Virus record (IMG/VR): IMGVR_UViG_3300004463_000226
Coordinates: 170,336-234,335 of that record
Strand: one strand, 5' to 3'
From: a virus
DNA length: 64,000 bases
A model generated the notes under the pieces. The model did no database searches. It was given only the letters and a program-made list of their open reading frames with translations, and had not been told where the DNA came from. Of this stretch, positions 1,433 to 62,916 are shown piece after piece (within the stretch, counting starts at the first letter, position 1; each line of letters starts with the position of its first letter). The position numbers and the translations under genes were made by a program.

Positions 1433-1444
1433 TATACAATTGTT
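1433..1444 (-). promoter_or_regulatory. Late promoter motif AACA-N6-TA
   Basis: AACAATTGTATA on the minus strand, 43 bp before the GTG start of the portal-like gene. It fits the AACA-N6-TW late consensus recalled for AR9-like phages. Confidence 0.55.
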
Positions 1445-1470
1445 CAGGTAGCGGAAAACTACAAAAAAAA

Positions 1471-1491
1471 TAGAGAGCTATCAGCTCTCTA
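1471..1491 (-). terminator. Rho-independent terminator
   Basis: Perfect 9-bp stem TAGAGAGCT / AGCTCTCTA with a 3-nt loop, followed on the minus strand by a run of eight T. It ends the small-gene cluster that starts with the polymerase. Confidence 0.8.
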
Positions 1492-1500
1492 TTCACTTTG

Positions 1501-1833
1501 TCAAATGTATATAGTTTCTTCAACAACTAGATCATCGTCATCATCACGCAAGTATTGTGATGGATTTTCAAAGAACTTCTTCTTGAACTCTTTAACTTCA
1601 GCATAGTTCTTAAAGAATAATTCCTTAACAGGTTTAAAGAAATGATGATGATAGTTAAACCTATGACGACATATCTTAAATGTAACTGCTCCGTATACAT
1701 GAAATCCATGGTCTGGGTGATTATAAGCATTGAATCCACCATTTTTACCTGGAACCAATGGGTAGAATTCTCCTATTTTAAACTTACCCTCTATAGGTAA
1801 ATCAATACATTGACCAATCTCAACTTTAATCAT
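1501..1833 (-). CDS. Hypothetical protein, 110 aa
   Basis: Not recognised. ATG follows AAAGGAGGGATATAA. The protein has a histidine-rich stretch in the middle (HRFNYHHHFF, around residues 57-66) and an acidic run DDDDD near the C-terminus. It is the last gene of the minus-strand cluster before a strong terminator. No membrane segment or signal peptide is apparent. Confidence 0.75.
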   Translation of the reverse strand: MIKVEIGQCIDLPIEGKFKIGEFYPLVPGKNGGFNAYNHPDHGFHVYGAVTFKICRHRFNYHHHFFKPVKELFFKNYAEVKEFKKKFFENPSQYLRDDDDDLVVEETIYI

Positions 1834-1851
1834 TTATATCCCTCCTTTTAA

Positions 1852-2262
1852 TTACATGAATCTTCTATCGAATTCAAATCTTAGCTTTTGTCCTGTGTTA
1901 TTCTCAGGATGAACTTCTACATTCTCAAAGAATCTACTAGCGAACCGAGAATATTTCTTTCCATCTTTTAAACTTTCATATGATATGCGTGTCATCTGGG
2001 TCTCTTCATCAGTTTGTTTATCATAAACCAGATATTCATCACCTTCTTTATAGTGACGGTATATACCATATCTAACCTCAGGTTCTGGAAGTTCATATGT
2101 TTCACCAATGAACTCACTAAGTTTACGATGTAAGTTCAATACATCGTGTCTTTCATTTAGCATTAAAGCATAAACCATGTTACCACTAATAGGATCTCTA
2201 TCAAGAATATTGGCTCCACATTCAGAATCCTTACTATTTCTCATAATTTTAATCTCTTTCAT
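1852..2262 (-). CDS. DUF1653-like protein, 136 aa
   Basis: The central region reads GIYRHYKEGDEYLVYDK and ends in FASRFFENVEV. This is the layout of the DUF1653 family (K/G-x-Y-x-H-Y-K-G followed by a conserved aromatic/ENV end), a small domain of unknown function found in bacteria and phages. Three in-frame ATGs cluster at the start; 2262 has the best spacing to AAGGAG. The first bases overlap the stop of the upstream gene, indicating translational coupling. Family assignment is from motif memory. Confidence 0.7.
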   Translation of the reverse strand: MKEIKIMRNSKDSECGANILDRDPISGNMVYALMLNERHDVLNLHRKLSEFIGETYELPEPEVRYGIYRHYKEGDEYLVYDKQTDEETQMTRISYESLKDGKKYSRFASRFFENVEVHPENNTGQKLRFEFDRRFM

Positions 2263-2267
2263 TGTCA

Positions 2268-2552
2268 TCATTCTCCTTTAAAATAATTATCAATTAATGT
2301 TTTAACCTCTGGGAATAACTCACAAAACTCATCAACAGTAAGTCTATCTTTTAATAATGAAATACTTGCATTCAACTCTACTTCTACTGAAACACCTTCT
2401 ACACCAGATATCTTTAACTCATCTTTCTTAAATTTCTCACTCTGAAAATGTTTAGCCTCTTCCATAGAAGTGACAACATGTCTTTCAGTACTTTCCCAAT
2501 CATCACCATACGTTGTCACGTATATAACATGAACTTCTTTCATTTTAGTCAT
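2268..2552 (-). CDS. Hypothetical protein, 94 aa
   Basis: Not recognised. An earlier in-frame TTG exists, but ATG 2552 has AAGGG at good spacing. The protein is acidic with a predicted beta strand (VIYVTTYGDDW) followed by a helix. It sits in a tightly packed cluster of short genes downstream of the DNA polymerase, overlapping its neighbours by a few bases. Confidence 0.7.
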   Translation of the reverse strand: MTKMKEVHVIYVTTYGDDWESTERHVVTSMEEAKHFQSEKFKKDELKISGVEGVSVEVELNASISLLKDRLTVDEFCELFPEVKTLIDNYFKGE

Positions 2553-2557
2553 AATTA

Positions 2558-2908
2558 TCAATCCCTTAATGTTATTGGATAAAACTTATCTGGAACTACT
2601 TGTGGTTTAGGTAAAGGAGACAGATAAACTCTATAAGCTGTCTCTTCACCAACTGAAAAAACATCCCTTCCCATAGAACCTAAACATTGAAAGTGTTTAT
2701 CAAAAGCAGTATCCCCAGATATATAAAATACTGGTTTATTGTATATAACTCTTCTTTCATGAAGAATATACTCAGCTGTACAGTTTTCTCTAGGAATTTC
2801 AACATTAAATTTCTCTCTAATATTAGAAATAGCCCTCAAGACAACTTCAGCTTCTCTAATCTTTATATGAGGATCTTGTCTGTTAAGATATTCTTGATAA
2901 CCGTACAT
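2558..2908 (-). CDS. Hypothetical protein, 116 aa
   Basis: Not recognised. The start at 2908 is preceded by AAGGAGGATAAT; a longer frame to 2944 lacks a ribosome site and would overlap the upstream gene. No known motif is seen. It lies in the same cluster as the DNA polymerase and was probably co-transcribed with it. Confidence 0.7.
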   Translation of the reverse strand: MYGYQEYLNRQDPHIKIREAEVVLRAISNIREKFNVEIPRENCTAEYILHERRVIYNKPVFYISGDTAFDKHFQCLGSMGRDVFSVGEETAYRVYLSPLPKPQVVPDKFYPITLRD

Positions 2909-2918
2909 ATTATCCTCC

Positions 2919-3569
2919 TTAGAATTTAATACATGTATATACATGAAAATTTGTTACGTCATCCTTAGTAATAGATATCATGGTTTCAAATAGATTAGGG
3001 TCATCTATATCCAAGATTGTTACACTCATAGGTAAACCAACTTTAATATGTGGAAATAATGCCTTTGTTAATCTAACACGTTTATCGCCTTCACCAAATG
3101 TAAGTATTTCGTTGTTGATCAACTTCTGGATATCTTCGTCAGTCAATAATTTTTCCGACTTCTTAGTGATACGGTCTACGATAACTCTATATGTATCTTT
3201 AAACGCATCAGTCATTTTAACATATCTACCAATAGGAAAATCTATCATATCTCCTGAGATAAATATACCATTATCATTAAATTTTAGATACTTGATAATC
3301 TTCTTGTTATCTCTAATGGTAACAAATACATCTTGAGAATTTAGCATCAGAGCATAACCTTCTGGTATACTAAATAATTTGAGAAGGTCATCTATCTGAT
3401 TAGTATATGAGAAATGTAATCCCATCTCCATAGCTAAACCATTATCATCTGTGAATATAACACCATTACGAACAACAAAGTAGCGAAGAAAAGACTTCTT
3501 CACTACTTGATTGATTGTATTTAGAACTTTAAGTTGTTTACTAACAACAGGTATTAATTGTTGCTCCAT
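2919..3569 (-). CDS. Unknown protein, 216 aa, translationally coupled to DNA polymerase
   Basis: Its ATG shares a base with the stop of the polymerase gene (TAATG), and its ribosome site GGGGAGG lies inside the polymerase C-terminal codons, so the two are coupled. It carries no polymerase motif B (KxxxNxxYG) or motif C (DTD), so it is not simply the missing polymerase half. The sequence alternates strands and turns (FVVRNGVIFTDDNG, VFVTIRDNKK), which could fit a clamp-like or other accessory fold. A polymerase accessory role is inferred only from coupling. Confidence 0.75.
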   Translation of the reverse strand: MEQQLIPVVSKQLKVLNTINQVVKKSFLRYFVVRNGVIFTDDNGLAMEMGLHFSYTNQIDDLLKLFSIPEGYALMLNSQDVFVTIRDNKKIIKYLKFNDNGIFISGDMIDFPIGRYVKMTDAFKDTYRVIVDRITKKSEKLLTDEDIQKLINNEILTFGEGDKRVRLTKALFPHIKVGLPMSVTILDIDDPNLFETMISITKDDVTNFHVYTCIKF

Positions 3570-5395
3570 TACATTACCTCCCCAAGGTCAATAATAAGTG
3601 GTTCGGCAAACCATTTATTAACATCTTCTTTACTTAATACTACACGCTTACGTTTGTTCATCTTGAACTTATTACGAAGCATATCGTTAAGTTCAACAAC
3701 ATTTGGCATTCCAAACCACTTAGTTGCCATGTTAGCTACATTGCCTGTAAGTAGGTTATCAACGAAGTCTTTACCAGCGTCTTCAACTTTACCTTTCTTA
3801 TCAGCCACAGCATTTTTCATAGCTTCTTGGATATTTCCACCAATGATTAGTTTCCCTACCATACAGTTTGGAGCAATGTTGAATGCAATAATGATATGAG
3901 GATACATTGCTGAGAAGTCCATGTCAACGACATTATCAAAGATATACATACTTGGATTACCGAATACAGGTATACCCATGAAGTCGTTTAACTTTGGATC
4001 TGCTACTAATGCACCATCAAACTTTTCATCTTCATCATCTTCCTCATTATCCGCTTGATAATCTAGTCCATAGTCTAGATTGATGTTGTTACCAATGATT
4101 AAACCTTGCTTATAATACTCAATATAAGCTCGGTTCTTTAAGAAGACAGTCTGCTTAAATATTTTGTGATACACTGTTGCATTTGAATAAGCACGTTGAT
4201 ATACGTTATCAATATCAGATGTCTTTCTTTCAATTCCTAACTGTAGAAGAACGTCTTTTATATTGTACATGACGAACTTCTTATAGTCTTTATAAGGCAA
4301 TGTCTGGATATTAGCATCTTCACTATAGTCCAGCTTTTCATCACCAATCTCTTTCTTTGCTACTGCATTTAAGGCATAGGAACGTAGTTCTCCGCCACCT
4401 TTACGTAAACCCGCATAGAGTAACATTTGGTCTAGATATGCTGTATAAGAAGAAATCATAAAGTAATCTGATTTATTCTCAACTTTAAAGTTCCTAGAGT
4501 CTTTTTTATAAAATAAGGACTTAACTTTAAAATCCTTATGGCACATGATGTTAACAGGATCTAATCCTAAAGCTTTAATCCGTGCAATAATGTACGGAAT
4601 ATCGAACGCCATGTTCCAGATCATTATAAAGTCACGTTTCAGAGTATTGATCAATTTGAACATGTCTCTTATTAAATCGGGTTCATCATCATACATATAG
4701 AATCTATATTCGAGTGTACCATATGTTTCATCAAAGGCTTCATGTAATTCTTCAATGAACTCATCTATAGTATCTTCAAATTCTTGAATCTGTGGATTAT
4801 TAGGATTACGTAATAAGAACGTATAAGATACCATATCCTCTTCATCCACAATTGTAACTGCATTAATAGGACATTCACCATCTTTAGGGAAACCTTCAAT
4901 ACCTATAGAATCGACCTCTATATCTAGGTACTGCTTAGTTATAGGTTTCTCCTTATCATTATGATTGTGTAAGAACCATTGTATTCGATACCAGTTATCG
5001 ATATCATAATCTGAGCCGAAGACATTCTTATACTTATGAATGTTACTTATAGCTCTAAAGTTTTTACTCTGTTTCATCTTATTGATGAATTGCACATAGT
5101 TAGGTCCTGCTTGATCTGCTATATAGTACGGTAAATTTCTAAATGTGTACTTATGCATCTCAGCATTTTCAATTTCGATAAATGTGCGGTTATACTTATT
5201 ATTGATTGCATTTTCTTTTGCAAAATAGAATTCCATCTCAGGTGATTCGATTGTTTCTAAGTGCTTTTCCCCTGTCCTGAGATCTTTATATATAATATCT
5301 AGGAAATCTTTATAACCTGTGCCCTTGTTAGGTCTATGATAAATTGTATTCACAAGCATCAGATTTTCCTTATCTAAGTGTGGTAAGATTCTCAC
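3569..5395 (-). CDS. Family B DNA polymerase, exonuclease domain and start of palm (split or truncated)
   Basis: 608 residues with the 3'-5' proofreading motifs in order: Exo I LDIEVD (about 157-162), Exo II WNMAFDIPYI (about 260-269) and Exo III YNIKD (377-381). The linker DGALV (about 460-464) follows, then polymerase motif A DFSAMYPHII (493-502). The frame ends about 105 residues later without motif B or motif C, so the fingers, catalytic DTD and thumb are missing. They must come from another gene if this is an active polymerase. Start ATG has AAAGGGAGTG. An early-type promoter lies 73 bp upstream. Confidence 0.88.
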   Translation of the reverse strand: MRILPHLDKENLMLVNTIYHRPNKGTGYKDFLDIIYKDLRTGEKHLETIESPEMEFYFAKENAINNKYNRTFIEIENAEMHKYTFRNLPYYIADQAGPNYVQFINKMKQSKNFRAISNIHKYKNVFGSDYDIDNWYRIQWFLHNHNDKEKPITKQYLDIEVDSIGIEGFPKDGECPINAVTIVDEEDMVSYTFLLRNPNNPQIQEFEDTIDEFIEELHEAFDETYGTLEYRFYMYDDEPDLIRDMFKLINTLKRDFIMIWNMAFDIPYIIARIKALGLDPVNIMCHKDFKVKSLFYKKDSRNFKVENKSDYFMISSYTAYLDQMLLYAGLRKGGGELRSYALNAVAKKEIGDEKLDYSEDANIQTLPYKDYKKFVMYNIKDVLLQLGIERKTSDIDNVYQRAYSNATVYHKIFKQTVFLKNRAYIEYYKQGLIIGNNINLDYGLDYQADNEEDDEDEKFDGALVADPKLNDFMGIPVFGNPSMYIFDNVVDMDFSAMYPHIIIAFNIAPNCMVGKLIIGGNIQEAMKNAVADKKGKVEDAGKDFVDNLLTGNVANMATKWFGMPNVVELNDMLRNKFKMNKRKRVVLSKEDVNKWFAEPLIIDLGEVM

Positions 5396-5467
5396 ATTTT
5401 CACTCCCTTTCTTCTTATATTTGTGTTGATTGATTTATAAAAAACCAATTTGATCGATTCCATACTA

Positions 5468-5477
5468 ATAATATATA
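5468..5477 (-). promoter_or_regulatory. Early promoter motif TATATATTAT
   Basis: Exact TATATATTAT on the minus strand, 73 bp before the DNA polymerase start, in the divergent gap opposite a late-type gene. Confidence 0.6.
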
Positions 5478-5509: not shown

Positions 5510-5521
5510 AACACATACTTA
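5510..5521 (+). promoter_or_regulatory. Late promoter motif AACA-N6-TA
   Basis: AACACATACTTA, 41 bp before ATG 5551. Spacing matches the other late-type sites in the window. Confidence 0.55.
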
Positions 5522-5550: not shown

Positions 5551-6687
5551 ATGACTATGTATGTAAACATTGATCTTCCTATCGAACGAGGGAGTTTGAT
5601 TAGTGAGATCAAATCTCTTCCTAAGATTACTGCTCCACCTAAAAAGAAGAAAGAAATATTCGATGAAGGTGAACCGTTGTTATTAACAGCGGTTGGTAAG
5701 AAAGGGAAGAAAGATAAAGGTAAGAAGAAGAAAAAAAATCAAATGGGTGAAGGTCTCAGCTTCATGGGTCTTAATGATGCTGATGTTACTACTGAGGATA
5801 CGTATGAAGAATATGATGAATCAGATGACAAACTCATTGATATTGAAGCTCTTCTGAATCGTGATGACGAAGAGGATGAGGTCGGAGGAATCATTGATGA
5901 ACAGAAGCGTAGTTACGAGAAACGTAAAAAGGATGAGAATCCTTTTAAGAAAGAATTCGCTGAAGAACTAACTCTCTTATATGATTTACTTGATGATTTA
6001 AATAAGTTTAATAAGGAACTTGACAAGAAGTATAAGACTATGGAAAGTAGTAAAGTTCGTGGAGTTAGTAAGTATACTAATGACATGATTATCAATATAC
6101 TTAATGCTAAGACTAGCAAACTTCAAGTTATCAAGGAGATTAACAGCCTTAAGAAAGTTATTGCTGACCTTAAGATTAAGATGGATGGTAAGAAAGGTGG
6201 GGCTGAAGGTGGTGTTGAAAGCACTGATGCATTGGCTACTAAGTATTTCCAAAACATCCTTAAGTTCGGTCGTAACAATTTCGTTAAGGAGTTTGGTAAT
6301 GATGACAATGATGGTGATGCTATCACTGATTTAGTTGCTCGAATTGAGCAGAATAAAATGGGATATAGTCCAGATGAAGATGAAAGTTTTCATGATCTAA
6401 TCCAAGAAAGATTAGAGAGCGAAGATAACCCGTTCCGTTCAGAAGCAGGATCTAAATATATCCAGTATGAAAACCTCGGTGTAAAGATTCAAATAAAAAA
6501 ATGTATTGATAATGGTGAATGGGAGTTTGTTGCTGTTGACCGTGACAATATGGAAGTACATGGATATCCTTTACCTCGCAAACGTGATGTTGGTAAAGTA
6601 AAATTCAATGATGGCTATGCTACTGATGAAAGGGGACGTAGTTATAAAGTAATTGAGTTTTATCTACCAGATGATTACGAAGATTAA
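5551..6687 (+). CDS. Late protein of unknown function, 378 aa, lysine-rich N-terminal segment
   Basis: Not recognised. ATG 5551 is used rather than an upstream TTG because GAGGAG sits 10 bases before it. Near the N-terminus are two basic patches (PPKKKKE and GKKDKGKKKKKN), then a strongly acidic segment (residues about 85-120), a helical probable coiled coil (about 130-215) and a mixed C-terminal domain. It is an isolated plus-strand gene between minus-strand units with its own late-type promoter and terminator, so a virion or assembly role is inferred. Confidence 0.8.
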   Translation: MTMYVNIDLPIERGSLISEIKSLPKITAPPKKKKEIFDEGEPLLLTAVGKKGKKDKGKKKKKNQMGEGLSFMGLNDADVTTEDTYEEYDESDDKLIDIEALLNRDDEEDEVGGIIDEQKRSYEKRKKDENPFKKEFAEELTLLYDLLDDLNKFNKELDKKYKTMESSKVRGVSKYTNDMIINILNAKTSKLQVIKEINSLKKVIADLKIKMDGKKGGAEGGVESTDALATKYFQNILKFGRNNFVKEFGNDDNDGDAITDLVARIEQNKMGYSPDEDESFHDLIQERLESEDNPFRSEAGSKYIQYENLGVKIQIKKCIDNGEWEFVAVDRDNMEVHGYPLPRKRDVGKVKFNDGYATDERGRSYKVIEFYLPDDYED

Positions 6688-10970: not shown

Positions 10971-11001
10971 AATACCCTTACAAGAATGTTGTAAGGGTAT
11001 T
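10971..11001 (-). terminator. Rho-independent terminator
   Basis: Perfect 13-bp stem AATACCCTTACAA / TTGTAAGGGTATT with a 5-nt loop, then a T7 run on the minus strand. It separates the SbcC-like gene from the gene upstream. Confidence 0.88.
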
Positions 11002-13925: not shown

Positions 13926-13944
13926 AATAGGGAAAGTCCCTATT
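13926..13944 (-). terminator. Hairpin at the end of the RNA polymerase beta-N gene
   Basis: AATAGGGA / TCCCTATT with a 3-nt loop immediately after the stop codon, followed on the minus strand by ATATCTTTTT. Confidence 0.72.
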
Positions 13945-15622
13945 ATATCCAGTCGTCATCTCCGTTCATATTTAGCCTCACATACATCTTACTTGTGTCT
14001 TCAATCTCCCTTTGATGTAATGTCATGCCTGTCATGACATTTCTCATCTTAGCTTCCATGTTAAACATATCCGAGATATTATTACATCCCGCATATACAT
14101 CAACAATCATTTTATCTTTATTATCATTCTTATAATACTCCATAGCCTCACGTTGCATTTCAAAGACACTATCCTCTGGTTCAAATGAATTATCGAAGTA
14201 TAGACCGTCTGTTTTAGCAAATGGAGTTATTACCCCAGATGAACCTGGGTCTGATGTACCACAAACGTTTATATCAATTAGTCCGATATAAGATGGGTGT
14301 ATTCCCCGATACTTTACCGAAATATTGTTATCATTCTTCCCGCCTAGCGCGTTTGGTCCTTTAAGAGTAAATCTATACTTACTGTAGAAGTCCATATCAT
14401 TGATTTTGTCATCAAATCTTAATAATCCAGATTTGTATAGCTGTTCCATGAGAACCATTCCTGGAAACTTAAAGATTTCTTTGACTTTATCAATTGTGAC
14501 TTTATTACCTAAAGCAATAATACGATTTACCCTCTGACTAAACTCTTTTGTCAGAAGAGAAGCAATGTATTCGTTACATCTTAGACGCTTATTAGTAAGG
14601 TCTAGATTATCTTTCTTTCTCAACTCATTGTAGTTCTGAATCATCCAACGGACAACTGAGTACATGTTCTTTTTATTAGGTTCATGTAACTTCAGAATCT
14701 TCTTAGTTGTTTCATCCAGCATTCTATCAAAGAATGTTAATGTGTTGAGACCTTTCTCATAATAGTTATATGCATTGGTAGCATTCAAACTCCCGATTCG
14801 TTCTATCCAATACGTTCTATCTTCCAATAAGTCAAAAGATAAACGATTGGTAACGATGCTCAGGATCATAAAAGCTAACGACTGCACATACGAGTATTTA
14901 CTAAAGAAATACTTGTTAACCTCTAACATGATTTTACTGCTAATAGGGAAGTAGATATTGTTATCTTTATCCCTTTCCTCAGAAACAAATCTCATTGTTG
15001 TGTTAACTTCGAAATATTCAAGAGTCTTCTTAACTCCAATCTTAGCAAAGTAGAATAGGAGAATATCTACAGGCTTCTTGAATATCATAATCATATATGC
15101 TGGAGCTGTATGTAACACTCCAGTTGTATCTTTAAATTCCTTAACATTTCTCTTGATAGAAACTGGCATTAAGGATTTAAGAGTTAAGTTCTGTCTTGTT
15201 GTATAAGTGGAAGCATCAACTAGCTGATATAACAAGAAATACTTCTTACCTTTGATTGTATAATAACCGTTTTCATCTGGTACAGGTATAAGTAATTTCT
15301 TTTCAATATTGGCTTTCTCACCTTTACAGTTTAGTCGGAACTTTAATCTCAGTTCTGCATACCGACTATCTTGCAGATACATGTACTTAATATCACTTTT
15401 CTTTTTAGTTTTACGTCGAGTTGTTATATAGTGATTGAGATCTATTTCTTTCTCATCATCAATATAATCATATCCAGTGAACTCAACGTACTTTAGAACC
15501 TCTAAAGATTTACAACTTGCGACGATATGTTCAATCAAATCATCGTCATAGTCTCGATTCATGAGACCAAAGTTCAAACGGTTTTCGTTGGGATTTAAAT
15601 AGTCACCCAGAAACTCTCGCAT
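13943..15622 (-). CDS. Non-virion RNA polymerase, beta subunit N-terminal half
   Basis: 559 residues matching the first half of bacterial RpoB. GYYTIKGKKYFLLYQLVD corresponds to the 'F.I.G.ERVIV.Q' segment, DLTNKRLRCNEYIASLL to 'D.LGNRRVRSVGELL', and IHPSYIGLIDINVCGTSDPG to the '[22 protein letters not shown]' region. The frame stops soon after, where RpoB would continue. The C-terminal half is a separate gene at 26147-28417. Split beta genes are a hallmark of phiKZ/AR9-type phage RNA polymerases; this set, under early-type control, is most consistent with the non-virion enzyme. ATG after AGGGGGATGACCG. Confidence 0.85.
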   Translation of the reverse strand: MREFLGDYLNPNENRLNFGLMNRDYDDDLIEHIVASCKSLEVLKYVEFTGYDYIDDEKEIDLNHYITTRRKTKKKSDIKYMYLQDSRYAELRLKFRLNCKGEKANIEKKLLIPVPDENGYYTIKGKKYFLLYQLVDASTYTTRQNLTLKSLMPVSIKRNVKEFKDTTGVLHTAPAYMIMIFKKPVDILLFYFAKIGVKKTLEYFEVNTTMRFVSEERDKDNNIYFPISSKIMLEVNKYFFSKYSYVQSLAFMILSIVTNRLSFDLLEDRTYWIERIGSLNATNAYNYYEKGLNTLTFFDRMLDETTKKILKLHEPNKKNMYSVVRWMIQNYNELRKKDNLDLTNKRLRCNEYIASLLTKEFSQRVNRIIALGNKVTIDKVKEIFKFPGMVLMEQLYKSGLLRFDDKINDMDFYSKYRFTLKGPNALGGKNDNNISVKYRGIHPSYIGLIDINVCGTSDPGSSGVITPFAKTDGLYFDNSFEPEDSVFEMQREAMEYYKNDNKDKMIVDVYAGCNNISDMFNMEAKMRNVMTGMTLHQREIEDTSKMYVRLNMNGDDDWI

Positions 15623-15696
15623 CGGTCATCCCCCTAAATAGAAATTATATCTATCATTGGAAAACATATCGCTTCGTTTTCCTCTAAAAAGATGTT

Positions 15697-17954: not shown

Positions 17955-18302
17955 TTACTCTTCAGTGTCGTCGTCGTTCTTAACCAGCAGCTTGAACTCT
18001 TGACCTGGAATAGCATATGGAGTATAGTTGCCTTCTTTTTCAGCCTCATCATTCTCGCGGTAAGATACACCAAGATCAAGTAGCTGCATGATGTTTAATG
18101 AATAATCAGTACCAGCCGCTTTGTTTTGGTTGATATGTTCAATAGCCTGGCGCAGGAACGCATAAGCAAATGTAGGAATTGCATTTGCATGACTGAAGAT
18201 AATATTATGTTCTGCTTCAAGGTAAGCCGCAGCTGCCTCAGCGATTTTTAAGATTTCTTTTTCATTCTCACGGATCTCGATTAATTTAACTTGTTTTGAC
18301 AT
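17955..18302 (-). CDS. Paralogue family protein, 115 aa
   Basis: Third family member: EAEHNIIFSHANAIPTFAYAFL matches LEEKHNILISHPEAIATIAL of the 147-aa copy. It lacks the LGAVGEITEAI tail and ends in an acidic DDDTEE. ATG after AGGAGGAAACTAAA. Its transcript probably starts at the TATATATTAT at 18429-18438 and carries a roughly 120-nt leader with a small hairpin (TTACCAAGGTAA). Confidence 0.8.
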   Translation of the reverse strand: MSKQVKLIEIRENEKEILKIAEAAAAYLEAEHNIIFSHANAIPTFAYAFLRQAIEHINQNKAAGTDYSLNIMQLLDLGVSYRENDEAEKEGNYTPYAIPGQEFKLLVKNDDDTEE

Positions 18303-18428
18303 TTTAGTTTCCTCCTAGAATTGGGTTTTTATTTTTGATTAATCTTCCTCAAATAAATGTTACCTTGGTAATATTTTTTTATTATAAATCTCCTCTCCCC
18401 AAGTATATTATTTATCTGATTCACTTAA

Positions 18429-23838: not shown

Positions 23839-23880
23839 TTTATAATCATCCTTTCTCACCTAATTGTTAATTACGTATTA

Positions 23881-26146: not shown

Positions 26147-28417
26147 TCATAGATCTAAATCAATAACCATCTTACCTTCAATTCGTTTACTCCATTCAAT
26201 GTCCTTCTTAACTTGGTCTTCGAACTCTTCTGGAGTACCAATAAATAGCTTTTCGTTCTTGTATTCTTCTCGGATGTTATGTTCACGAAGATATTCTTCA
26301 TATTTCTCTTTGGTACAAACATACATTGTACCATCAATCATGTAGTCCCGTATCTCATCTGTATACAAGTCTACATTCATTCTTTCATCAGAGAATACTA
26401 GTCGAATACCCATAGCCTTAAAATAAGCCTGTAAGATTTCAACATTTCGATTAGTGAACTCATCAGAATACTTGAAGTCTTTAATTGGCTTGATGTTGGT
26501 TGCTAGTTGTTCACCAAGGTCTCTTCGTCCGATGACTGAAGAACGATAGAATAGATGTAACTGCGCAATTATATTTGTAGGTACGCCAATAGCACTGTTT
26601 ATGTTCTCTTGGTCACCTATACGTATTGGAGTCTTACTATATAACTCTTGATGTGTTTTAGCTTTATTAGATTTCTCAGGAATACCTTTCTTACTTAAGC
26701 TTCCTGTTGAACGTACACTGAAACCTTTCTTAGATGTCTGCTTTAACTTGATAACATACATATCGCCGACAACAAGTTTTTTCAGTACTTTAATTTTACG
26801 ACCAAATCTATTAACATATACATCATATGGTTTGATCCAGTCAAACTCTTTATACAAGTCTCTGATTCTATCGAATAGAGGCTCTTTTTCCCATAGTGGT
26901 GGGATATGGATGAATATACCTTCATCCTCAATACTCTTAAAGAATATTCCCTGTTCCATTAAGCTCAGCTTATCAATGAACTTTCTTAATTTTTCCTCCT
27001 GCTCTTTATTAAAGTACCAGACAGTTCTTAATAGAAGTTCTGTTTTCTCTTTAATAGTATCAAGAGTAGCCAATCTTTCTTTGACACGGTTACAAATGAA
27101 TGTAATGGACTGCTCAAATAGCTGCTGGGAGTTTAATCGGTTGATTACTCCTAATGTATTAAAGATAATATCTACACGTTCTCCTGTTTCTAGGAAAGGC
27201 ATTTCATCATCTGGTAGGATCTTAGAAATAACACCTTTATTACCATAACGTCCAGTAATCTTTTGACCTACTCCTAGTGGGATATCACGTTGAATAACAA
27301 ACTCAATAATCATGTTGCTGAATACTGAGTTATCTTCTTCTCTCCACTTGTAATTAGGATCTAGGATATCTCTAGCTTTCTTGTAATAATAGTTAATATC
27401 TTTGGAGTATTTAGATCCAGAATTAATAATTCTTTCACAACGATCTTTAACCTGCTCATAGAAAGAACGCTGCATTTTAAGAATATCTAATATCTGAGCA
27501 TTGAATGTATTATCATCTAATTCTTCGATAGTTTTGTTAGAGTAGATAGTAATATCCACAATTTGTCCATCGCAGAAAGATAATACATCTGATGAGAAAT
27601 TGATTTTGCGCAGATTAGATTTCTTTACATCATATAATAACTGATTGTTATGTATACGGCGCTTTGCACATACAATCTTGTCCTTAACATACTCATTAAT
27701 GTTAGGGAAACATTTGTAGTTTTCGGAATCACCATATAAATTACATAAGATATCATTGTCATTTAATGACACTTTAACTGTTTCGATTTCCTTAGAAATC
27801 ATGGATTTAGAGAAACTTTCAGATACCATGATAGCATCCTCGATGGTATTGTTTTCAAGCATGTATACAAACTTTGCATTCTTCCCATAGCAGTAATTCA
27901 TGTTATCGTCGTAAGAAGTTGTTTTGTAAAGTACTTCATCCTTCTTAACAACATCTCCAACAGATTTACTGTCCATGTTCTTATTGTTGTAGACAAACCC
28001 GAATTTCTCTGTTAAATCCTCTACATTTCTTTTCATGATAACATCATACATGTCATTCTCTTCATCATACACAAACAACAGGTACGAATGGTCATCATTG
28101 ACCCCGTTTTGGAATCTTGAAATCTTGTCAATGATTTTCAACTGACTCTTAGCCTGATAATACCCAGTAGAGTATTTACCAACTAGATTTTCATAGTTGG
28201 TAAATACCTTAGGGAAATCAGGATGGAGTACATTGACAAATTGTCTTAGATGGCTGGTAAACATAATATTCCTTGAAGATGAGATGTATCCAGGATTCGT
28301 TAATAATGTCATTCCAAATATATCATCTTTGAAATGAAGCTCTCTTTCTTTTTCCTGTAACTTCTCTCTTAACTGCACTGAGGATGGTATGTTTCTTTTA
28401 TCCTTATCAATTGCCAC
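26147..28417 (-). CDS. Non-virion RNA polymerase, beta subunit C-terminal half
   Basis: 756 residues matching the second half of RpoB. NTIEDAIMVSESF corresponds to the 'FEDAI.IS' motif. GQKITGRYGNKGVISKILPD corresponds to 'GDKMAGRHGNKGVIS', with lysines and glycines that contact the nucleotide path. DIIFNTLGVINRLNSQQLFE corresponds to 'DI.LNPLGVPSRMN.GQ..E', and MYVIKLKQTSKKGFSVRSTG to 'YMLKL.H...DK..ARSTGPY'. Together with the gene at 13943-15622 it would rebuild a complete beta subunit. GTG start with AGGAGGGTTTACAG. It has its own early-type promoter. Confidence 0.92.
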   Translation of the reverse strand: MAIDKDKRNIPSSVQLREKLQEKERELHFKDDIFGMTLLTNPGYISSSRNIMFTSHLRQFVNVLHPDFPKVFTNYENLVGKYSTGYYQAKSQLKIIDKISRFQNGVNDDHSYLLFVYDEENDMYDVIMKRNVEDLTEKFGFVYNNKNMDSKSVGDVVKKDEVLYKTTSYDDNMNYCYGKNAKFVYMLENNTIEDAIMVSESFSKSMISKEIETVKVSLNDNDILCNLYGDSENYKCFPNINEYVKDKIVCAKRRIHNNQLLYDVKKSNLRKINFSSDVLSFCDGQIVDITIYSNKTIEELDDNTFNAQILDILKMQRSFYEQVKDRCERIINSGSKYSKDINYYYKKARDILDPNYKWREEDNSVFSNMIIEFVIQRDIPLGVGQKITGRYGNKGVISKILPDDEMPFLETGERVDIIFNTLGVINRLNSQQLFEQSITFICNRVKERLATLDTIKEKTELLLRTVWYFNKEQEEKLRKFIDKLSLMEQGIFFKSIEDEGIFIHIPPLWEKEPLFDRIRDLYKEFDWIKPYDVYVNRFGRKIKVLKKLVVGDMYVIKLKQTSKKGFSVRSTGSLSKKGIPEKSNKAKTHQELYSKTPIRIGDQENINSAIGVPTNIIAQLHLFYRSSVIGRRDLGEQLATNIKPIKDFKYSDEFTNRNVEILQAYFKAMGIRLVFSDERMNVDLYTDEIRDYMIDGTMYVCTKEKYEEYLREHNIREEYKNEKLFIGTPEEFEDQVKKDIEWSKRIEGKMVIDLDL

Positions 28418-28456: not shown

Positions 28457-28466
28457 ATAATATATA
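28457..28466 (-). promoter_or_regulatory. Early promoter motif TATATATTAT
   Basis: Minus strand, 40 bp before the GTG start of the RNA polymerase beta-C gene. Confidence 0.62.
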
Positions 28467-29712: not shown

Positions 29713-29771
29713 TAATTTTATTCCTCCCTTATTTATCTCTATATGAATGTTGGTAAGTGATTAAAAACTTA

Positions 29772-30972: not shown

Positions 30973-31029
30973 TTTTATCCTCCCCCAAAATCTGGAAATT
31001 TTATATTTTTTTATCTAAAAAGATGTTGA

Positions 31030-35274: not shown

Positions 35275-35433
35275 TTACTTACCGTTTAAGTTCTTTTCAT
35301 GAGCTTCCTTGATCATTGCATCAAGAGATTCTGATGTAACAGTCTTTTTAGATGGATCTGCAATAGATAAATCTCCAAATACACCTTGTTCTGTCACAAT
35401 TGCTAATTCTTCATTATGTGTAACATTGGACAT
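35275..35433 (-). CDS. Small late protein, 52 aa
   Basis: A short open frame with a good site (AAAGGGGGAACAACC before ATG 35433), its own late-type promoter (36 bp upstream) and its own terminator. Begins MSNVTHNEELAIVTEQG and ends AHEKNLNGK. Not recognised. Small size, a dedicated late promoter and the absence of neighbours on its transcript suggest a minor virion or late accessory protein. Confidence 0.72.
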   Translation of the reverse strand: MSNVTHNEELAIVTEQGVFGDLSIADPSKKTVTSESLDAMIKEAHEKNLNGK

Positions 35434-35457: not shown

Positions 35458-35469
35458 TACATCTATGTT
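35458..35469 (-). promoter_or_regulatory. Late promoter motif AACA-N6-TA
   Basis: AACATAGATGTA on the minus strand, 36 bp before ATG 35433 of the 52-aa gene. Confidence 0.55.
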
Positions 35470-39042: not shown

Positions 39043-39054
39043 TAATAATATGTT
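39043..39054 (-). promoter_or_regulatory. Late promoter motif AACA-N6-TA
   Basis: AACATATTATTA on the minus strand, 39 bp before ATG 39015. Back-to-back with a plus-strand late site 4 bp away. Confidence 0.58.
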
Positions 39055-39057: not shown

Positions 39058-39069
39058 AACATAGATTTA
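39058..39069 (+). promoter_or_regulatory. Late promoter motif AACA-N6-TA
   Basis: AACATAGATTTA, 32 bp before ATG 39090. Confidence 0.53.
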
Positions 39070-39089: not shown

Positions 39090-39536
39090 ATGGTATTAGT
39101 TAAGTATCACAGGAAAGGTCATGTCTCAATAGCAGATGCTACTCACACCTATCCATATGGAGAAATAAAGACTATAGACATAACTCATTATAGATTAGAT
39201 GATAGGCAAGAAGTAAATATAGTAATAGACAATGAACCTGACTTTAAAATAAACTTTCTAGATCATTTAGATAAAAAAATTGTGATATCTCCTTATGCTA
39301 TTAAATCTGTTAATGACGAGAATGGCACTTTAATTTCATTAAATGTATATGAAGACTGTCTAACTCATGGATCACTATCACTTCGCAACATAGGAATGTT
39401 TGAAATCACCCATGATACCAGTGAAGGTAAGGATGAAGTTTCAATTGCTGTGGATGGTGAAAATATATTCCGTTTTGATAACAACTATACTGGAAAATGT
39501 ATTATCACAAATAACATTCAACATAAACCTCACTAA
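39090..39536 (+). CDS. Late hypothetical protein, 148 aa
   Basis: Not recognised. ATG 39090 with GGAGGTAATGAAT (an earlier in-frame ATG is too close to the site). Strongly beta-rich, with repeated hydrophobic-charged strands, like small virion decoration or tail proteins. A late-type promoter is directly upstream. Confidence 0.75.
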   Translation: MVLVKYHRKGHVSIADATHTYPYGEIKTIDITHYRLDDRQEVNIVIDNEPDFKINFLDHLDKKIVISPYAIKSVNDENGTLISLNVYEDCLTHGSLSLRNIGMFEITHDTSEGKDEVSIAVDGENIFRFDNNYTGKCIITNNIQHKPH

Positions 39537-41827: not shown

Positions 41828-41839
41828 TATTAAATTGTT
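41828..41839 (-). promoter_or_regulatory. Late promoter motif AACA-N6-TA
   Basis: AACAATTTAATA on the minus strand, 38 bp before GTG 41801. Divergent from the site at 41865-41876. Confidence 0.56.
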
Positions 41840-41864: not shown

Positions 41865-41876
41865 AACATTATTCTA
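41865..41876 (+). promoter_or_regulatory. Late promoter motif AACA-N6-TA
   Basis: AACATTATTCTA, 34 bp before ATG 41899. Confidence 0.55.
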
Positions 41877-48828: not shown

Positions 48829-48838
48829 ATAATATATA
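48829..48838 (-). promoter_or_regulatory. Early promoter motif TATATATTAT
   Basis: Minus strand, 24 bp before the start of the topoisomerase A gene. Confidence 0.58.
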
Positions 48839-51277: not shown

Positions 51278-51384
51278 TTTAAGGTTTCCCCCTTTTAAAT
51301 ATATTTTATTCTCCTACTGTAATGTTGTTATGTCTATAATTTTTTATACGACTAGGGGTAGGGATCATACTTAATTAGTCTATA

Positions 51385-53262: not shown

Positions 53263-53427
53263 TTATTTCTTTTTATTCTTACGTTTTCTTTTACCTTTAC
53301 CATGAAATAGCCCGTACTTATCTTTAAGCAAAGCAATCTTTTCCTCTGTAGTGAGTTTAGGCTTTGGCTTAATCTTTGATAATTGACTAGCCACTTTAGA
53401 TAAGGCACTAGGTAATTTTGGCAACAT
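53263..53427 (-). CDS. Small lysine-rich protein, 54 aa
   Basis: Short open frame with a strong site GGAGGGGATCTAA before ATG 53427. Begins MLPKLPSALSKVASQLSKIK and ends GKGKRKRKNKKK, a strongly basic tail. Sits between the Dda-like helicase and the 96-aa gene, co-directional with both. Probably a small nucleic-acid-binding protein; unrecognised. Confidence 0.7.
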   Translation of the reverse strand: MLPKLPSALSKVASQLSKIKPKPKLTTEEKIALLKDKYGLFHGKGKRKRKNKKK

Positions 53428-53468
53428 TTAGATCCCCTCCGTATTACTATTAATATCTTGTTCCCCTA

Positions 53469-55822: not shown

Positions 55823-55842
55823 AGAGGGTCAACTGACCCTCT
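55823..55842 (-). terminator. Rho-independent terminator
   Basis: AGAGGGTCA / TGACCCTCT hairpin followed by TTTTTTAAGG on the minus strand, at the end of the helicase gene. Confidence 0.85.
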
Positions 55843-56645
55843 TCGTTCTATTTATTGATGAAGCAAAATCAAATAATGTTTCTGGTTCATCATTTTCATC
55901 CACCATTTGTCGTTCAGTGGCATTCTTCTTACCTCGTTTAGCTCCCAAATCAACTGCATCGAAATCAGAAGCCAAGCTAGTTTCAGATAGAGATGTTTCA
56001 AGATGAACATCATCCAATAGACGAATTCTATTTCCAATTTCAAATGGATGGTTAAAGTAAGTTAAATCATGTGGATCACGATAACGTATCTTGATACGTT
56101 TCATAGTTAAGTAATACTGATTAGAGCCACGTTTCTTCTCAACGTTAATGATACATGCCCAGTCAGCGTTTTCCATAACTTCCCACGCTGAACCTACGTT
56201 AGAACGACCTACAAATCGTCCTACATCTTCTTTATTTGCTTCGAGGGCAGCATCTACTACAGTAGCTGCTCCACGGTTAAGCTGATGAGCTGTTATCACA
56301 GGAACGTCCAGTTCTATAGCTAATGACTTTAATTCATTTGTGACATTTTTCAGCTCTTCTTTTTCATCCTTACCATACTCAGCTGGACGAATACGTTTAA
56401 TGTAATCGAGGATCAGAGTAATTACTTCCCTACCATCATCCTCAATATCCTCAATGATTGTATACAGATCATTTGTATCGATGCTACGGTTAGGATAATA
56501 CTTAATCATAATATCAATTTCATCATCATCGCGAAGTGTCATCTGCCCCTGTTCACGAAGCATCTTAATTACCTGCTTCGGTGTGTAGTTACGAATGTCT
56601 TCAGGGGTAACTGTCATATTAAATAAACGCTCAACAGTTTCTTCT
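55829..56645 (-). CDS. DnaB-like replicative helicase, 3' exon
   Basis: Second exon of the intron-split helicase (with 57638-58509). It carries VITLILDYIKRIRP (Walker B, H2), VPVITAHQLNRGA (H3/H4) and IKIRYRDPHDL, and ends in a charged tail. Joined at the predicted splice (GT before the intron, A after) the reading frame reads TMENTVEETVERLFNM, matching the DnaB helix after the nucleotide site. The spliced protein is about 562 residues. An apparent unspliced start (GTG 56656) is not used. Confidence 0.88.
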
Positions 56646-57637
56646 CGCACATTCACATAGTTCGTTAAACTATGCAGTTCTCTTATGAACTTCCCTAAGT
56701 TTCCCTAGGATACTAGACTATATCTTCCCTTAATAAGGGTCTCTCCATTTCGATTTAAGGGATTCTCACCCACTCACTTGAGCCCTACTCCTAATGTGTT
56801 TTACCACCAAATGGGATAGTCGTTGAACCTTCTTGTATGTGTTAGAATTTATACTTATAGCTTATTTCTGTTCTCAATAACCTTGGTTTTATTTTTGTCT
56901 TTATATATGAGTTTAGTGACTTCTTACTATATTCTTTAGAAGAATATTCTTCTATAATCACACTGACAATATCTTTAGTTTTCAGACCTTTCTCTAATAG
57001 CTCACAAATTCTCTCTATAACTTGATCTGAATATTTTGAATTGGGATTATTTGAACCTTTATATTTCTCTTTGAAGAGTTCGGCACAATTGTTTAGCCCT
57101 GTTTCAACAGCATGACTAACATTATATTGATGAGTAGACCATTCGAGATTTTTGTAATAATTATTTGATTTTCTACCATCTTTATGATTTACAAAAATCT
57201 TTTCTTTTGTTCTACCTGCAACAAAATGCCATGCTACTAATCTATGAACTAGAACTTTTTTATACTTACCGTCATCTCCAATTAGGGTAATATGTTTATA
57301 CCCCTGACTATGGTTAGCTGGTTCAATATTCCTATTCTTTAAAAAACTATAGATTTGTCCGTGATCCGAAATCATATAGCACTCAGTCATTATACCAGGG
57401 TAATAGAGCATACTCCATCTTTCATCTATAATCAAATCCACATATAATGTCATTGATACACCTCCTAAAACATAGTGTACCGATTCTAACACATACAGCT
57501 TGGCTGCGGATTTTCCAATCTTAAACCTTGTTACCATACCTGAATAGTTAGTTCAGCCATTATAATGTCACCATTATAACTTGGTAGTTTAAGCAATAAG
57601 GACTTCCCCGCAATTAAGAGAGAAACGGCAAAATTTC
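56646..57637 (-). mobile_element. Group I intron in the DnaB-like helicase gene
   Basis: 992-nt intron. At the 5' splice ACGGU (exon) pairs with GCCGU in the intron with a terminal U-G, giving P1; the 3' exon AGAA pairs with UUUU for P10. Core elements: P at 57606-57615 (AATTGCGGGG), R at 56812-56829 (GGTTCAACGACTATCCCA) and S at 56715-56726 (AAGATATAGTCT); R GACUA pairs with S UAGUC (P7). This is the subgroup IA2 type common in Bacillus phages. It ends in a G before the exon and contains an HNH endonuclease gene in a loop between P and R. Confidence 0.9.
56842..57453 (-). CDS. HNH homing endonuclease (intron-encoded)
   Basis: 203 residues from ATG 57453 with AGGAGG; an upstream extension to 57537 lacks a site. 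NUMOD4-like start (CYMISDHGQIYSFLKNR), then the HNH core HRLVAWHFV...VNHKDGRKSNNYYKNLEWSTH with His, Asn and Asn in the expected places, then a C-terminal NUMOD/HTH-like DNA-binding region (NSKYSDQVIERICELLEKGL). It would cut intronless helicase genes and spread the intron. Confidence 0.9.
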   Translation of the reverse strand: MTLYVDLIIDERWSMLYYPGIMTECYMISDHGQIYSFLKNRNIEPANHSQGYKHITLIGDDGKYKKVLVHRLVAWHFVAGRTKEKIFVNHKDGRKSNNYYKNLEWSTHQYNVSHAVETGLNNCAELFKEKYKGSNNPNSKYSDQVIERICELLEKGLKTKDIVSVIIEEYSSKEYSKKSLNSYIKTKIKPRLLRTEISYKYKF

Positions 57638-58509
57638 ACCGTGTTTTCCATAGTTATGAATAAAATAGTTTTACGTTTACCTACCTTTTTAGTAGGCATG
57701 CCTTTATTATATCTCTTGATATCCTGCGCTGTCTTTAAGAGTATACCCGATTTGAAGCCAGCTGGAAGTCCCATGTATACATATAGGCGCTTAGACATAT
57801 AACCAGGAGCAAGAATTTGATTAAGCATTTTAATCCCTGTTTTCAATATACGGGCAGGGTCTTTAAGAGCATTTACGATGTCTGTCATAGTATCTTCAAA
57901 TGTTTCTTCATCCAATGTAAATGTATCTACATCTTCCATTACATTTGACTTACGAGACTCATTTAAAAATGCTCGGAATAATTCTACAGCTTCTTTATTA
58001 ATCTCCTGGAAGCTTTCATAGTCACCAGAATCTAACTTCTCCATGGTGCTATAGATCTTATCTTTATATCTGAGAAGATAAGCATAAACTAATCGGTCTA
58101 CAATAGCCTTGTTTATGTAGCGAATCTCATCATAGTTTATTCGTTTATACGCTGGGAGATTCTTAATTATCTCCTCATTTTCTTCACTGTTAGAATCAGA
58201 GCGACAGAAGTTAGTGATTATACTTTCATTCTCCATCCCTAATTCTAATCTAGCTTTTAAAGCACGCTGTATAAAATAAAAGCGTGCTTCTAACTTTTCA
58301 TTTCTTTCATAGACAGAATCATCTATAACATCAAACAATTTCTTCATGTTTGTTAATGATTTACGTGTAATCTGTCTAGAGTCCTTGAATAAATACCCTA
58401 TAAGGTTATTCAACATTGTTACATCAAATATTAACTTGATCTTCTTTGGTTCATGTGCACTTGAGATTTTAAATCTCGAACTGTTTCGTCTACTAGCAGT
58501 TACACTCAT
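57638..58509 (-). CDS. DnaB-like replicative helicase, 5' exon
   Basis: First exon, about 290 codons plus 2 bases. N-terminal helical region, then LYVYMGLPAGFKSGILLKTA (Walker A region; the canonical glycine before K is Phe, an unusual change) and ILFITMENTV (H1a), where the intron interrupts. ATG overlaps the stop of the SbcD-like gene (ATGA). The loader-type partner is not seen in this window. It unwinds DNA ahead of the phage polymerase at the fork. Confidence 0.88.
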
Positions 58510-60368: not shown

Positions 60369-60378
60369 ATAATATATA
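60369..60378 (-). promoter_or_regulatory. Early promoter motif TATATATTAT
   Basis: Minus strand, 30 bp before ATG 60339 of the nuclease/helicase operon. Confidence 0.63.
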
Positions 60379-60460
60379 GATTAAATATGCTTTATAATAA
60401 AGTTTAAACCAAAATAAATTACTAGACGAGGTGCTGAGAGGTTTAGTATTTCCAAAGCGA

Positions 60461-60472
60461 AACAATATTTTA
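60461..60472 (+). promoter_or_regulatory. Late promoter motif AACA-N6-TA
   Basis: AACAATATTTTA, 39 bp before ATG 60500; first late site of the right-hand virion/lysis block. Confidence 0.6.
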
Positions 60473-60499
60473 AAAATATTATAAAGAAAGGGTGTAATT

Positions 60500-61447
60500 A
60501 TGCCTAAGTCCTTAGAACAAACATTCGTTTATCAGACCTTAAACGGCTCTAATGGTATCAGTACAGGTGTCATGAAGGCTATGAAAGAGGGTACTATCTT
60601 AACAAAGGCAAATCTTGAAGAAGCTTTCCTTATTATTAATAAGAACTTCAAGTTTCCATTGAAATACAAGATATTGGATGAAGTAGATAGAGGAGATATT
60701 GTCTTACTATATTCTCCTGACAATGTCCGTATTCCAACTTGTATGCCTTTCTTCTTAACGAAGAACTCTCAAGGTAAAATTGTTTCAGTTGTTATCGTAG
60801 ATACCTATGGTAAGATGGACAAGGAAACAAAAAATGTTAGTATCGATGCAAAGAAGTTTTATTGCATGATGGAAGGTGCACATTTAGCTAAGACATATTA
60901 TCTCTACAGTAAAGAACTGTCTAAGAGAAATATCGTTATTACTAGCGGTTCATCTATTTACTCCAACATGTTCACACGGGTTCTTAATAAGCAATATGCA
61001 TTGAATGTTGATAAGTCTAAACAACATAAAGTTCTATTCTTGGCTAGTAAGTTCTATCTAATTAACATCCTAGAATTAGAGGATAATGAGATGACTAAAA
61101 ACTATGCTATGAAGAACTGTGTTGGAGGAAATCCTTATATTCTTAATGAGGTAAATGATCTTCTAAATACAGAAGATTATAAGGACTTATCTACGTTTAT
61201 CAAAGCATTGGCTCGTCCAGAATTAGGACTTGGAATGAGTGATATTACAGTACGTGGTTATATCGAACGATTTATCAACATGTATGATGCGACTGCTCTA
61301 TTTGCATTAGAGTACTTCCCATTCTTCATGTACAACGTAGTATCCGTAACAAATGGTGCATATATTAACAACCAATATGTCTTAGAAGATATCGTTGAGA
61401 AATATGGACCAAAATTATATGCCGATATAATCTCTGTAGAGAGATAG
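60500..61447 (+). CDS. Late virion-type protein of unknown function, 315 aa
   Basis: Not recognised. ATG after AAAGAAAGGGTGTAATT; late-type promoter upstream. Alternating strands and turns (IPTCMPFFLTKNSQGKIVSV) and a helical C-terminal part. First gene of a plus-strand block that ends in endolysin and tail fibre, so a tail or baseplate role is inferred. Confidence 0.77.
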   Translation: MPKSLEQTFVYQTLNGSNGISTGVMKAMKEGTILTKANLEEAFLIINKNFKFPLKYKILDEVDRGDIVLLYSPDNVRIPTCMPFFLTKNSQGKIVSVVIVDTYGKMDKETKNVSIDAKKFYCMMEGAHLAKTYYLYSKELSKRNIVITSGSSIYSNMFTRVLNKQYALNVDKSKQHKVLFLASKFYLINILELEDNEMTKNYAMKNCVGGNPYILNEVNDLLNTEDYKDLSTFIKALARPELGLGMSDITVRGYIERFINMYDATALFALEYFPFFMYNVVSVTNGAYINNQYVLEDIVEKYGPKLYADIISVER

Positions 61448-61457
61448 GAGGTAGACT

Positions 61458-61952
61458 ATGGATATCAATATAGTTAGAGACAATTTACGTCAGATTGGGT
61501 CGGGTAATATTATCCGACTAATTTCTGATGTACTATTACACAATATTGATAGTATTGACACTTATAGAACAGACGTTATGTATTATCAAGATGAAGTCGT
61601 TTATATGTATGACTCTGTTAATAACAAACACTTATTGTATCGCTGTAAAGTAAATAAAACCACCCCAGGAGCATTTAATGCTAATAACTGGGATCCCTAT
61701 GTGTTTAAGTTTAAGGATAGAGCTGTAACATTAGAGACTACATTTACAGCTACTACTGATGGTACTTCAACTTGTGCTATCAATCAACCTTTATTCAACT
61801 ACACAACAGATACCTTAAATGTATATCATTCATTGCGTGGAAGATTACGTCAAGGAACTGATTGGAATCTATCTACTGATAAATTATCTGTTGTATTATC
61901 TGGATTTACTCTATATAAAAATGAGACTTTATTATTTGAAGTTATTAAATAA
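61458..61952 (+). CDS. Tail/baseplate-type protein, 164 aa
   Basis: C-terminal half has the phage tail-protein signature 'F.AT.DGT...', visible as TTFTATTDGTSTCAINQPLF followed by TLNVYHSLRGRLRQGTDW, which matches the common 'l.VyvnG..l..G.dY' pattern of fibre and baseplate proteins. The N-terminal half includes YRCKVNKTTPGAFNANNWDP, a carbohydrate-binding-like turn. ATG after GGAGGTAGACT; starts 10 bases after the 315-aa gene and shares its transcript. Confidence 0.65.
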   Translation: MDINIVRDNLRQIGSGNIIRLISDVLLHNIDSIDTYRTDVMYYQDEVVYMYDSVNNKHLLYRCKVNKTTPGAFNANNWDPYVFKFKDRAVTLETTFTATTDGTSTCAINQPLFNYTTDTLNVYHSLRGRLRQGTDWNLSTDKLSVVLSGFTLYKNETLLFEVIK

Positions 61953-61958
61953 TTATCA

Positions 61959-61970
61959 AACATATTGGTA
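61959..61970 (+). promoter_or_regulatory. Late promoter motif AACA-N6-TA
   Basis: AACATATTGGTA, 35 bp before ATG 61994 of the endolysin. Confidence 0.55.
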
Positions 61971-61993
61971 ATTATAAGAGAGGAGTGAATATT

Positions 61994-62836
61994 ATGCCAA
62001 AAGTAATGATTGACCCTGGTCATGGTGGTAAGGACTCTGGTGCCGTAGCATTCGGCTTGAAAGAAAAAGATATGAACCTTGTCACAGCTTTTGCTGTACG
62101 TGATGAGTTAAATCGTCACGGTGTTCAAACAAATATGACACGTACTACTGACGTGTTCATTGAGCTTTCCCAACGTGCTCGTTTAGCTAACAATTGGGGT
62201 GCTGACTTATTTGTATCTTGTCATTATAACGCTGGTGGCGGCGATGGTGCTGAAGTAATTCATAGCGTTGTTGGTGGTGAAGGTGAGAAATTAGCAGATA
62301 AGATCTTAGCACGTATTAAATCTGAATTAGGTCAGAACTTCCACGGTTCCAATCCATCTTTCTCTAGACGAGGAAGCGATGGTGGCGACTACCATGCTGT
62401 AGTTCGTGAGACACATATGACTGGTGTAATCGTGGAGCCTGGATTCATTGATTCTAGCGATCGTATCCTCTTTGATACAGAAGCAGAACAACGTAAATCT
62501 GGTATCGTAATTGCACACGGGATTCTTGATCTACTCGGTATCCCTGTAAAAGGTGGAGAAGCTCCTGCTCAAACACCTTCTCAACCTACTCCAGCTCCAG
62601 CTCCTAAACCAGCTGGTATTCTTGCTGTAGTTCAGGTTACTGCTGAGAACTTAAATATCCGTAGCGGTCCAGGAACTAAATACCCAAGCATCGGTAAAGC
62701 ACCTAAAGATCGCATGTATAATGTTATCGCCAACCAGAATGATTGGCACCGTGTTATCCTTGGTGATGGAGATAGCCGCGAAGCTTGGATCTTCGGAAAT
62801 AACGGTCAATATTTGAATATGTTAAAACAGTTTTAA
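61994..62836 (+). CDS. N-acetylmuramoyl-L-alanine amidase endolysin
   Basis: 280 residues. Amidase_3 catalytic domain (1-175): IDPGHGGKDSGAV (first zinc His), LKEKDMNLVTAFA (second ligand Glu region), FVSCHYNAGGG (third ligand His) and GVIVEPGFIDS (catalytic Glu). A Pro/Ala linker (PAQTPSQPTPAPAPKP) follows, then a C-terminal SH3b cell-wall-binding domain (ENLNIRSGPGTKYPSIG). Cleaves the N-acetylmuramoyl-L-alanine bond of peptidoglycan. No signal peptide. ATG 61994 with GAGAGGAG; an upstream GTG is less likely. Confidence 0.93.
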   Translation: MPKVMIDPGHGGKDSGAVAFGLKEKDMNLVTAFAVRDELNRHGVQTNMTRTTDVFIELSQRARLANNWGADLFVSCHYNAGGGDGAEVIHSVVGGEGEKLADKILARIKSELGQNFHGSNPSFSRRGSDGGDYHAVVRETHMTGVIVEPGFIDSSDRILFDTEAEQRKSGIVIAHGILDLLGIPVKGGEAPAQTPSQPTPAPAPKPAGILAVVQVTAENLNIRSGPGTKYPSIGKAPKDRMYNVIANQNDWHRVILGDGDSREAWIFGNNGQYLNMLKQF

Positions 62837-62843
62837 TTAGATA

Positions 62844-62871
62844 GTGTATAGAGGCTCATGTCTCTATACAC
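62844..62871 (+). terminator. Rho-independent terminator
   Basis: Perfect 10-bp stem GTGTATAGAG / CTCTATACAC with an 8-nt loop followed by ATCTTTTATTTG, after the endolysin. Confidence 0.82.
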
Positions 62872-62904
62872 ATCTTTTATTTGTCATTGATTCTTTTTAG
62901 AAAA

Positions 62905-62916
62905 AACAATACTTTA
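62905..62916 (+). promoter_or_regulatory. Late promoter motif AACA-N6-TA
   Basis: AACAATACTTTA, 37 bp before ATG 62942 of the tail-fibre gene. Confidence 0.6.

Follow-up and report, generated by a model that had tools for sequence, protein, structure and literature searches.

AACA-N6-TA as the probable promoter class of an AR9-type non-virion RNA polymerase in a jumbo phage genome

The sequence AACA-N6-TA, which recurs at a preferred distance upstream of gene starts in the genome of a giant phage known from metagenomes only, is in all probability the promoter class of the phage's own AR9-type non-virion RNA polymerase (nvRNAP), an enzyme which would itself be made from early promoters. Both the predicted identity of the promoter and the layout of the genes in two putative classes are strongly supported by comparison of sequences. 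The window, by which is meant the whole analysed stretch of 64,000 nucleotides, comprises bases 170,336-234,335 of a 234,335-base virus record, and was read together with six independent stretches, each of 20 kb, from elsewhere in this genome (G000). Genes were called with one simple home-made caller on the window, the six stretches, AR9 and the relatives, such that the start codons of some genes are possibly off by a few codons, and distances from site to gene are counted from the first A of the motif to the start codon.

Position of the motif upstream of genes

Across the window AACA-N6-TA occurs 68 times, against a mean of 76 in dinucleotide shuffles, and in the absence of any excess the signal therefore lies in position only. 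In this regard, the zone 28-60 nt upstream of called genes in the window contains 17 AACA-N6-T[A/G] sites where 1.4 are expected (P ~1e-13), and the same zone in 120 kb of the genome unseen by the first-pass annotation contains 23, with 2.0 expected (P ~6e-17). The density of the sequence in non-coding DNA is ~8-12 times lower outside these zones, and the antisense strand of the zones holds 8 sites. Among 14,080 gapped patterns, compared over tetramer, spacer and tail, AACA-N6-T[A/G] ranks first. Moreover, the peak is lost with a spacer of N5 or N7 (TA tails number 4, 36 and 1 for N5, N6 and N7, respectively), and the controls in which other spacers or other tetramers were used are flat, as is SPO1, a phage of another type in which no such positional motif profile was found. 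No late signal was seen in a single 50-kb stretch of S6, a weak test which says little because only that one stretch was read.

The first-pass annotation had listed ten AACA-N6-TA sites, all of which are present exactly as listed, on both strands (Table 1). Their spacing from the start codon, given there as 32-43 bp, measures 32-44 nt, the value of 44 belonging to the site at 1433 and the remainder lying within the earlier range; the scan of motif against start-codon distance which it proposed, run on the window and the 120 kb, returns the strong 28-60 nt preference. Its attribution of the sites to the AR9 nvRNAP class likewise holds, in that the consensus matches the published AACA-N6-TA/G (PMC5312081) and the cognate subunits are encoded in the genome, but the tail it suggested, TW, was not quite right, the published one being TA/G. 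In other words, the list caught a real class but was incomplete, missing members ahead of replication genes (DNA polymerase, ligase, UvsX and GyrB) and a comparably placed site, at 53451, before a gene of unknown function. Some late sites far from a start, for example that 74 nt before betaN, may be chance matches. A further upstream element, TAWT, placed 12 nt before AACA, occurs at 9 of 40 own sites, was not seen in G002, G001 or AR9, and was left unproven.

Table 1. Predicted promoters and nvRNAP genes (window positions unless stated; distance in nt from the first A of the motif to the start codon; G001 and G002 are relatives of the phage)
Feature	Position	Strand	Gene	Distance	Relatives and remarks
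Late promoter AACAATTGTATA	1433..1444	-	portal (AR9 g128 homolog), GTG start	44	gene crosses left edge of window; G001 portal ortholog: 45 nt
Late promoter	5416..5427	-	DNA polymerase 3569-5359	68	missed in first pass; G001/G002: 39 nt
Early promoter	5468..5477	-	DNA polymerase		kept in G001/G002
Late promoter	5510..5521	+	gene 5551-6687	41	kept in G001/G002 at 39 nt
Late promoter	10979..10990	-	SbcC-like 8283-10943		not found at G002 ortholog
nvRNAP betaN	13943..15622	-	AR9 gp105 homolog		E=2e-71 to AR9 chain in PDB 7S00
Possible late promoter	15685..15696	-	nvRNAP betaN	74	not found in G001/G002
Late promoter, TG variant	18350..18361	-	gene 17955-18302		G001/G002: 39-40 nt
Late promoter, TG variant	23857..23868	-	DNA ligase 21742-23838		below early promoter; both classes present in G001/G002
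nvRNAP betaC	26147..28417	-	AR9 gp089 homolog		E=3e-119 to AR9 chain in PDB 7S00
Early promoter TATATATTAT	28457..28466	-	nvRNAP betaC		kept in G001
Late promoter	29740..29751	-	UvsX-like recombinase	39	not found in G001/G002
Late promoter	31016..31027	-	gene 30094-30972		relatives: 40 nt
Late promoter	35458..35469	-	small conserved ORF 35275-35433	36	kept in G002 at 38 nt
Late promoter	39043..39054	-	38293-39015 (AR9 g78 virion-RNAP-region homolog)	39	
Late promoter	39058..39069	+	gene 39090-39536	32	back to back with 39043 site
Late promoter	41828..41839	-	40629-41801 (AR9 g52 homolog)	38	kept in G002 at 33 nt
Late promoter	41865..41876	+	M48-like zincin 41899-43188 (AR9 g51 homolog)	34	
Early promoter	48829..48838	-	gyrase A		kept in G001/G002
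Late promoter	51315..51326	-	gyrase B (GyrB) 48875-51277	49	G001/G002: 33 nt
Late promoter	53451..53462	-	gene 53263-53427	35	
Late promoter	60461..60472	+	virion protein 60500-61447 (AR9 g281 homolog)	39	kept in G001 at 42 nt
Late promoter	61959..61970	+	endolysin 61994-62836	35	
Late promoter	62905..62916	+	ORF with ATG at 62943, near contig end	38	
gp226-like specificity subunit	G000:129402-130883				outside window, same genome; E=1.5e-21

Early promoters, polymerase subunits and the two gene classes

A second upstream motif, TATATATTAT, is followed at 26 of 35 sites by six further bases and then a G. The division of the genes resembles that in AR9. The late motif alone precedes the genes for portal, major capsid, sheath, protease and endolysin; the early motif alone precedes those for nvRNAP betaC, the gp226-like protein and gyrase A; and both precede DNA polymerase, ligase and perhaps betaN. 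With classes assigned by homology and by the early motif, the late motif is found ahead of virion and continuous genes and is absent before early-only genes. The late sites are also shared between genomes, a relative carrying the site at 18 of the 26 genes with a late site of their own versus 3 of 17 genes without one (P=0.001), and the early motif is conserved among orthologs in G001 and G002 (P=7e-5). The predicted class is accordingly named as an AR9-like 'late plus continuous' one, standing before DNA polymerase, ligase, UvsX and gyrase B too. The earlier description of its members as late-type genes is right for the virion and lysis genes, which the motif does precede, but the class is not late-only because the motif also precedes replication genes, some of them with early promoters as well. 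Separately, a leader, AATCAATAATAA (or AATCAATTAATAA), is seen before the start of 15 own genes, 13 of which have the early motif, as for example upstream of window positions 37358 and 52534.

Homologs of the betaN and betaC subunits and of the gp226 specificity subunit of AR9 are encoded in the genome (Table 1), in which part of beta'N is also found, and betaN keeps the equivalents of its pocket residues R363 and K375. The own gp226 gave no tblastn match against phage records, and AR9 gp226 used as query against the own genome does find it. Several relatives have their gp226-like gene in the form of two ORFs (L049, L050 and L052, in G008, G009 and G011), as though an intron interrupted it. 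The source is, by these likenesses, a jumbo phage of the AR9/PBS1 group; in a betaC tree of eight sequences it stands, together with G001 (~66% identical to it), beside AR9, phiR1-37, S6 and LPJP1 and not among them, the support for those four being 93/97 at an unstarred fork. A PhuZ/tubulin-like gene lies at window positions 32416-33546 of this AR9-type phage. An HNH endonuclease (56842-57453) separates the two pieces of a DnaB-like helicase gene (window 55829-58509), the G001 ortholog of which is a single ORF (L022:12699-14375); the interruption looks like a group I intron, with no gathering-level match in Rfam. Near 56675-56826 a stretch of 120 bases has one match, at ~82% identity, to DNA of a Staphylococcus phage, beside an endolysin gene.

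In the proposed scheme, the nvRNAP subunits (betaN, betaC and the gp226-like protein) would be expressed from TATATATTAT-N6-G early promoters. The enzyme would then start RNA at the last A of AACA-N6-TA, mostly ~20-32 nt before the start codon, and its targets would be the virion and lysis genes and many of those for replication. Its timing is presumably late, and genes with both promoter types would be expressed throughout infection. Homology to AR9 suggests that the motif would be recognised on the template strand as 3'-TTGT-5'.

It might be supposed instead that the motif, lying as it does just upstream of the ribosome-binding site, is a 5'-leader or RNA-processing element and not a promoter. 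This is improbable, as both the motif and its distance equal those of the mapped AR9 class (PMC5312081), and as the genes are split between two AR9-type motifs. Even less credible is the possibility that host sigma-70-type promoters lie near these AT-rich gene starts, with AACA incidental to them: the region is AT-rich and weak -10-like words do occur in it, but at the ten sites the best agreement with TTGACA/TATAAT is 8-9 of 12, at inconsistent positions, and the signal requires the exact N6 and the preferred distance. Chance, or a gene-start composition artefact of an AT-rich genome, would accord with a motif total that is not above expectation, but is virtually eliminated by the count in the unseen 120 kb and by the flat spacer, tetramer and SPO1 controls.

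Uracil or thymine in the template strand

Among multisubunit RNA polymerases, promoter reading on the template strand with a need for uracil has been studied in the enzyme of AR9. There the need for U at -10 is due to V206 of gp226, which would clash with a methyl group, and the V206G variant accepts T (PMC9209446). The first-pass annotation held that the polymerase here, too, reads uracil in the template strand. In favour of this are the motif, its spacing, the polymerase and the retained R363 and K375 of betaN, along with the presence in the own genome of Dcd and Dtm homologs (both dU enzymes), which fits a dU ancestry. The claim is nevertheless doubtful and was not supported, since V206 is Leu in the alignment of the own gp226, position 206 varies in the clade outside the cultivated dU group, a thymidylate synthase (TS) is encoded, and the Dtm homolog is without its DxD nucleophile.

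With respect to the first of these points, position 206 is Val in the aligned phages with known or presumed dU DNA, and further gp226 loci recovered by profile search have V, L, T, Q, S or K there, I207 and W208 being retained in most cases. On the gp226 tree Val alone needs 5 changes, at least 3 of them on well-supported branches. AACA-N6-T[A/G] is the top-ranked upstream pattern in the own genome and in G002, G003, G011, G012, G014, G016 and G021, a set that spans T206, L206, Q206 and V206 members (G012 having T206, G014 L206 and G016 Q206); in G009 and G022 it takes second or third place. AACA-N6 gives a weak signal in G019 and G025 (L109-L111, L118-L120), the gp226 homologs of which have Tyr or Phe in place of W208, and these two may use different late promoters.

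The own TS shares 50% identity with B. subtilis ThyA and retains both the catalytic Cys and the Asn of GNPFN, and its identity as a dUMP hydroxymethylase of the SPO1 gp29 type was rejected at 22% identity; no TS was found in the relatives with known or presumed dU DNA that were tested (AR9, BpSp, LPJP1, Machias, S6, SA1 and phiR1-37). AR9 g151, annotated as a deoxyribonucleotidase, is presumably the dTMP phosphatase Dtm of PMC12697855, and it is in a two-sequence alignment with this protein that the own homolog lacks the DxD. A jumbo phage with dU DNA would be expected to remove dT nucleotides by an intact Dtm or Dtt and to have no TS, an expectation from which the TS and the DxD-less Dtm homolog depart. 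UGI and dUTPase homologs were looked for in addition and not found, which says little. TS and residue 206 are not tightly coupled, as G002 has a TS and keeps V206; in contigs >150 kb, TS is present in 1 of 10 with Val and 4 of 10 with another residue, a difference which is not significant between contigs which are not independent.

The overall picture from L206, the TS and the DxD-less Dtm homolog leans towards a polymerase that would not be restricted to U. A wider proposal, plausible enough to state but tentative, is that the AR9-type polymerase of this clade, sister to the dU phages, recognises 3'-TTGT-5' on the template strand of thymine DNA, and that Val is maintained at position 206 in dU genomes only. 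If so, template-strand promoter reading would be independent of uracil DNA, and would either have preceded it or have outlived its loss. The clade keeps the promoter yet has altered the uracil-specificity residue several times, and some members carry a TS; with this combination, natural enzymes offer a direct test of the order in which template-strand reading and uracil DNA arose, and of what residue 206 does.

Comparison with the phiKZ and AR9 systems

The nvRNAP of phiKZ is likewise a multisubunit enzyme, the fifth subunit of which is of the gp68/gp226 type (PMC9209446). The phiKZ late promoters (TATG) differ in motif, and the likeness here comes from betaC sequence homology only (7OGP). The early (vRNAP) promoters of AR9, with the published consensus AAATATATATTAT-N6-G, have in common with the own genome the TATATATTAT core and the G after six bases, and differ in that the own genome adds the leader AATCAATAATAA, for which no match was found in the stretches of G001, G002 or AR9.

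The AR9 promoters have been mapped by dRNA-seq, and 94 non-early starts carry the late motif (PMC5312081); the scan used here, applied to AR9, finds 55 sites with an identical spacer peak at an identical distance, and the same profile is obtained in G001 and G002. The late promoters of the own genome therefore share with those of AR9/PBS1 the tetramer, the N6 spacer, the T-R start, the distance, the late and continuous classes, the betaN and betaC subunits and the gp226-like subunit. They differ in the L206 of the own gp226, as against V206 in AR9, and in the thymidylate synthase encoded alongside. A further difference lies at +2, where a purine occurs at 38 of 41 own sites and at all 24 G002 sites, compared with 30 of 55 in AR9, which is the background level (53-55%). 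This purine is present in other relatives of the same branch and not in G021 or G022, and is a clade-specific feature.
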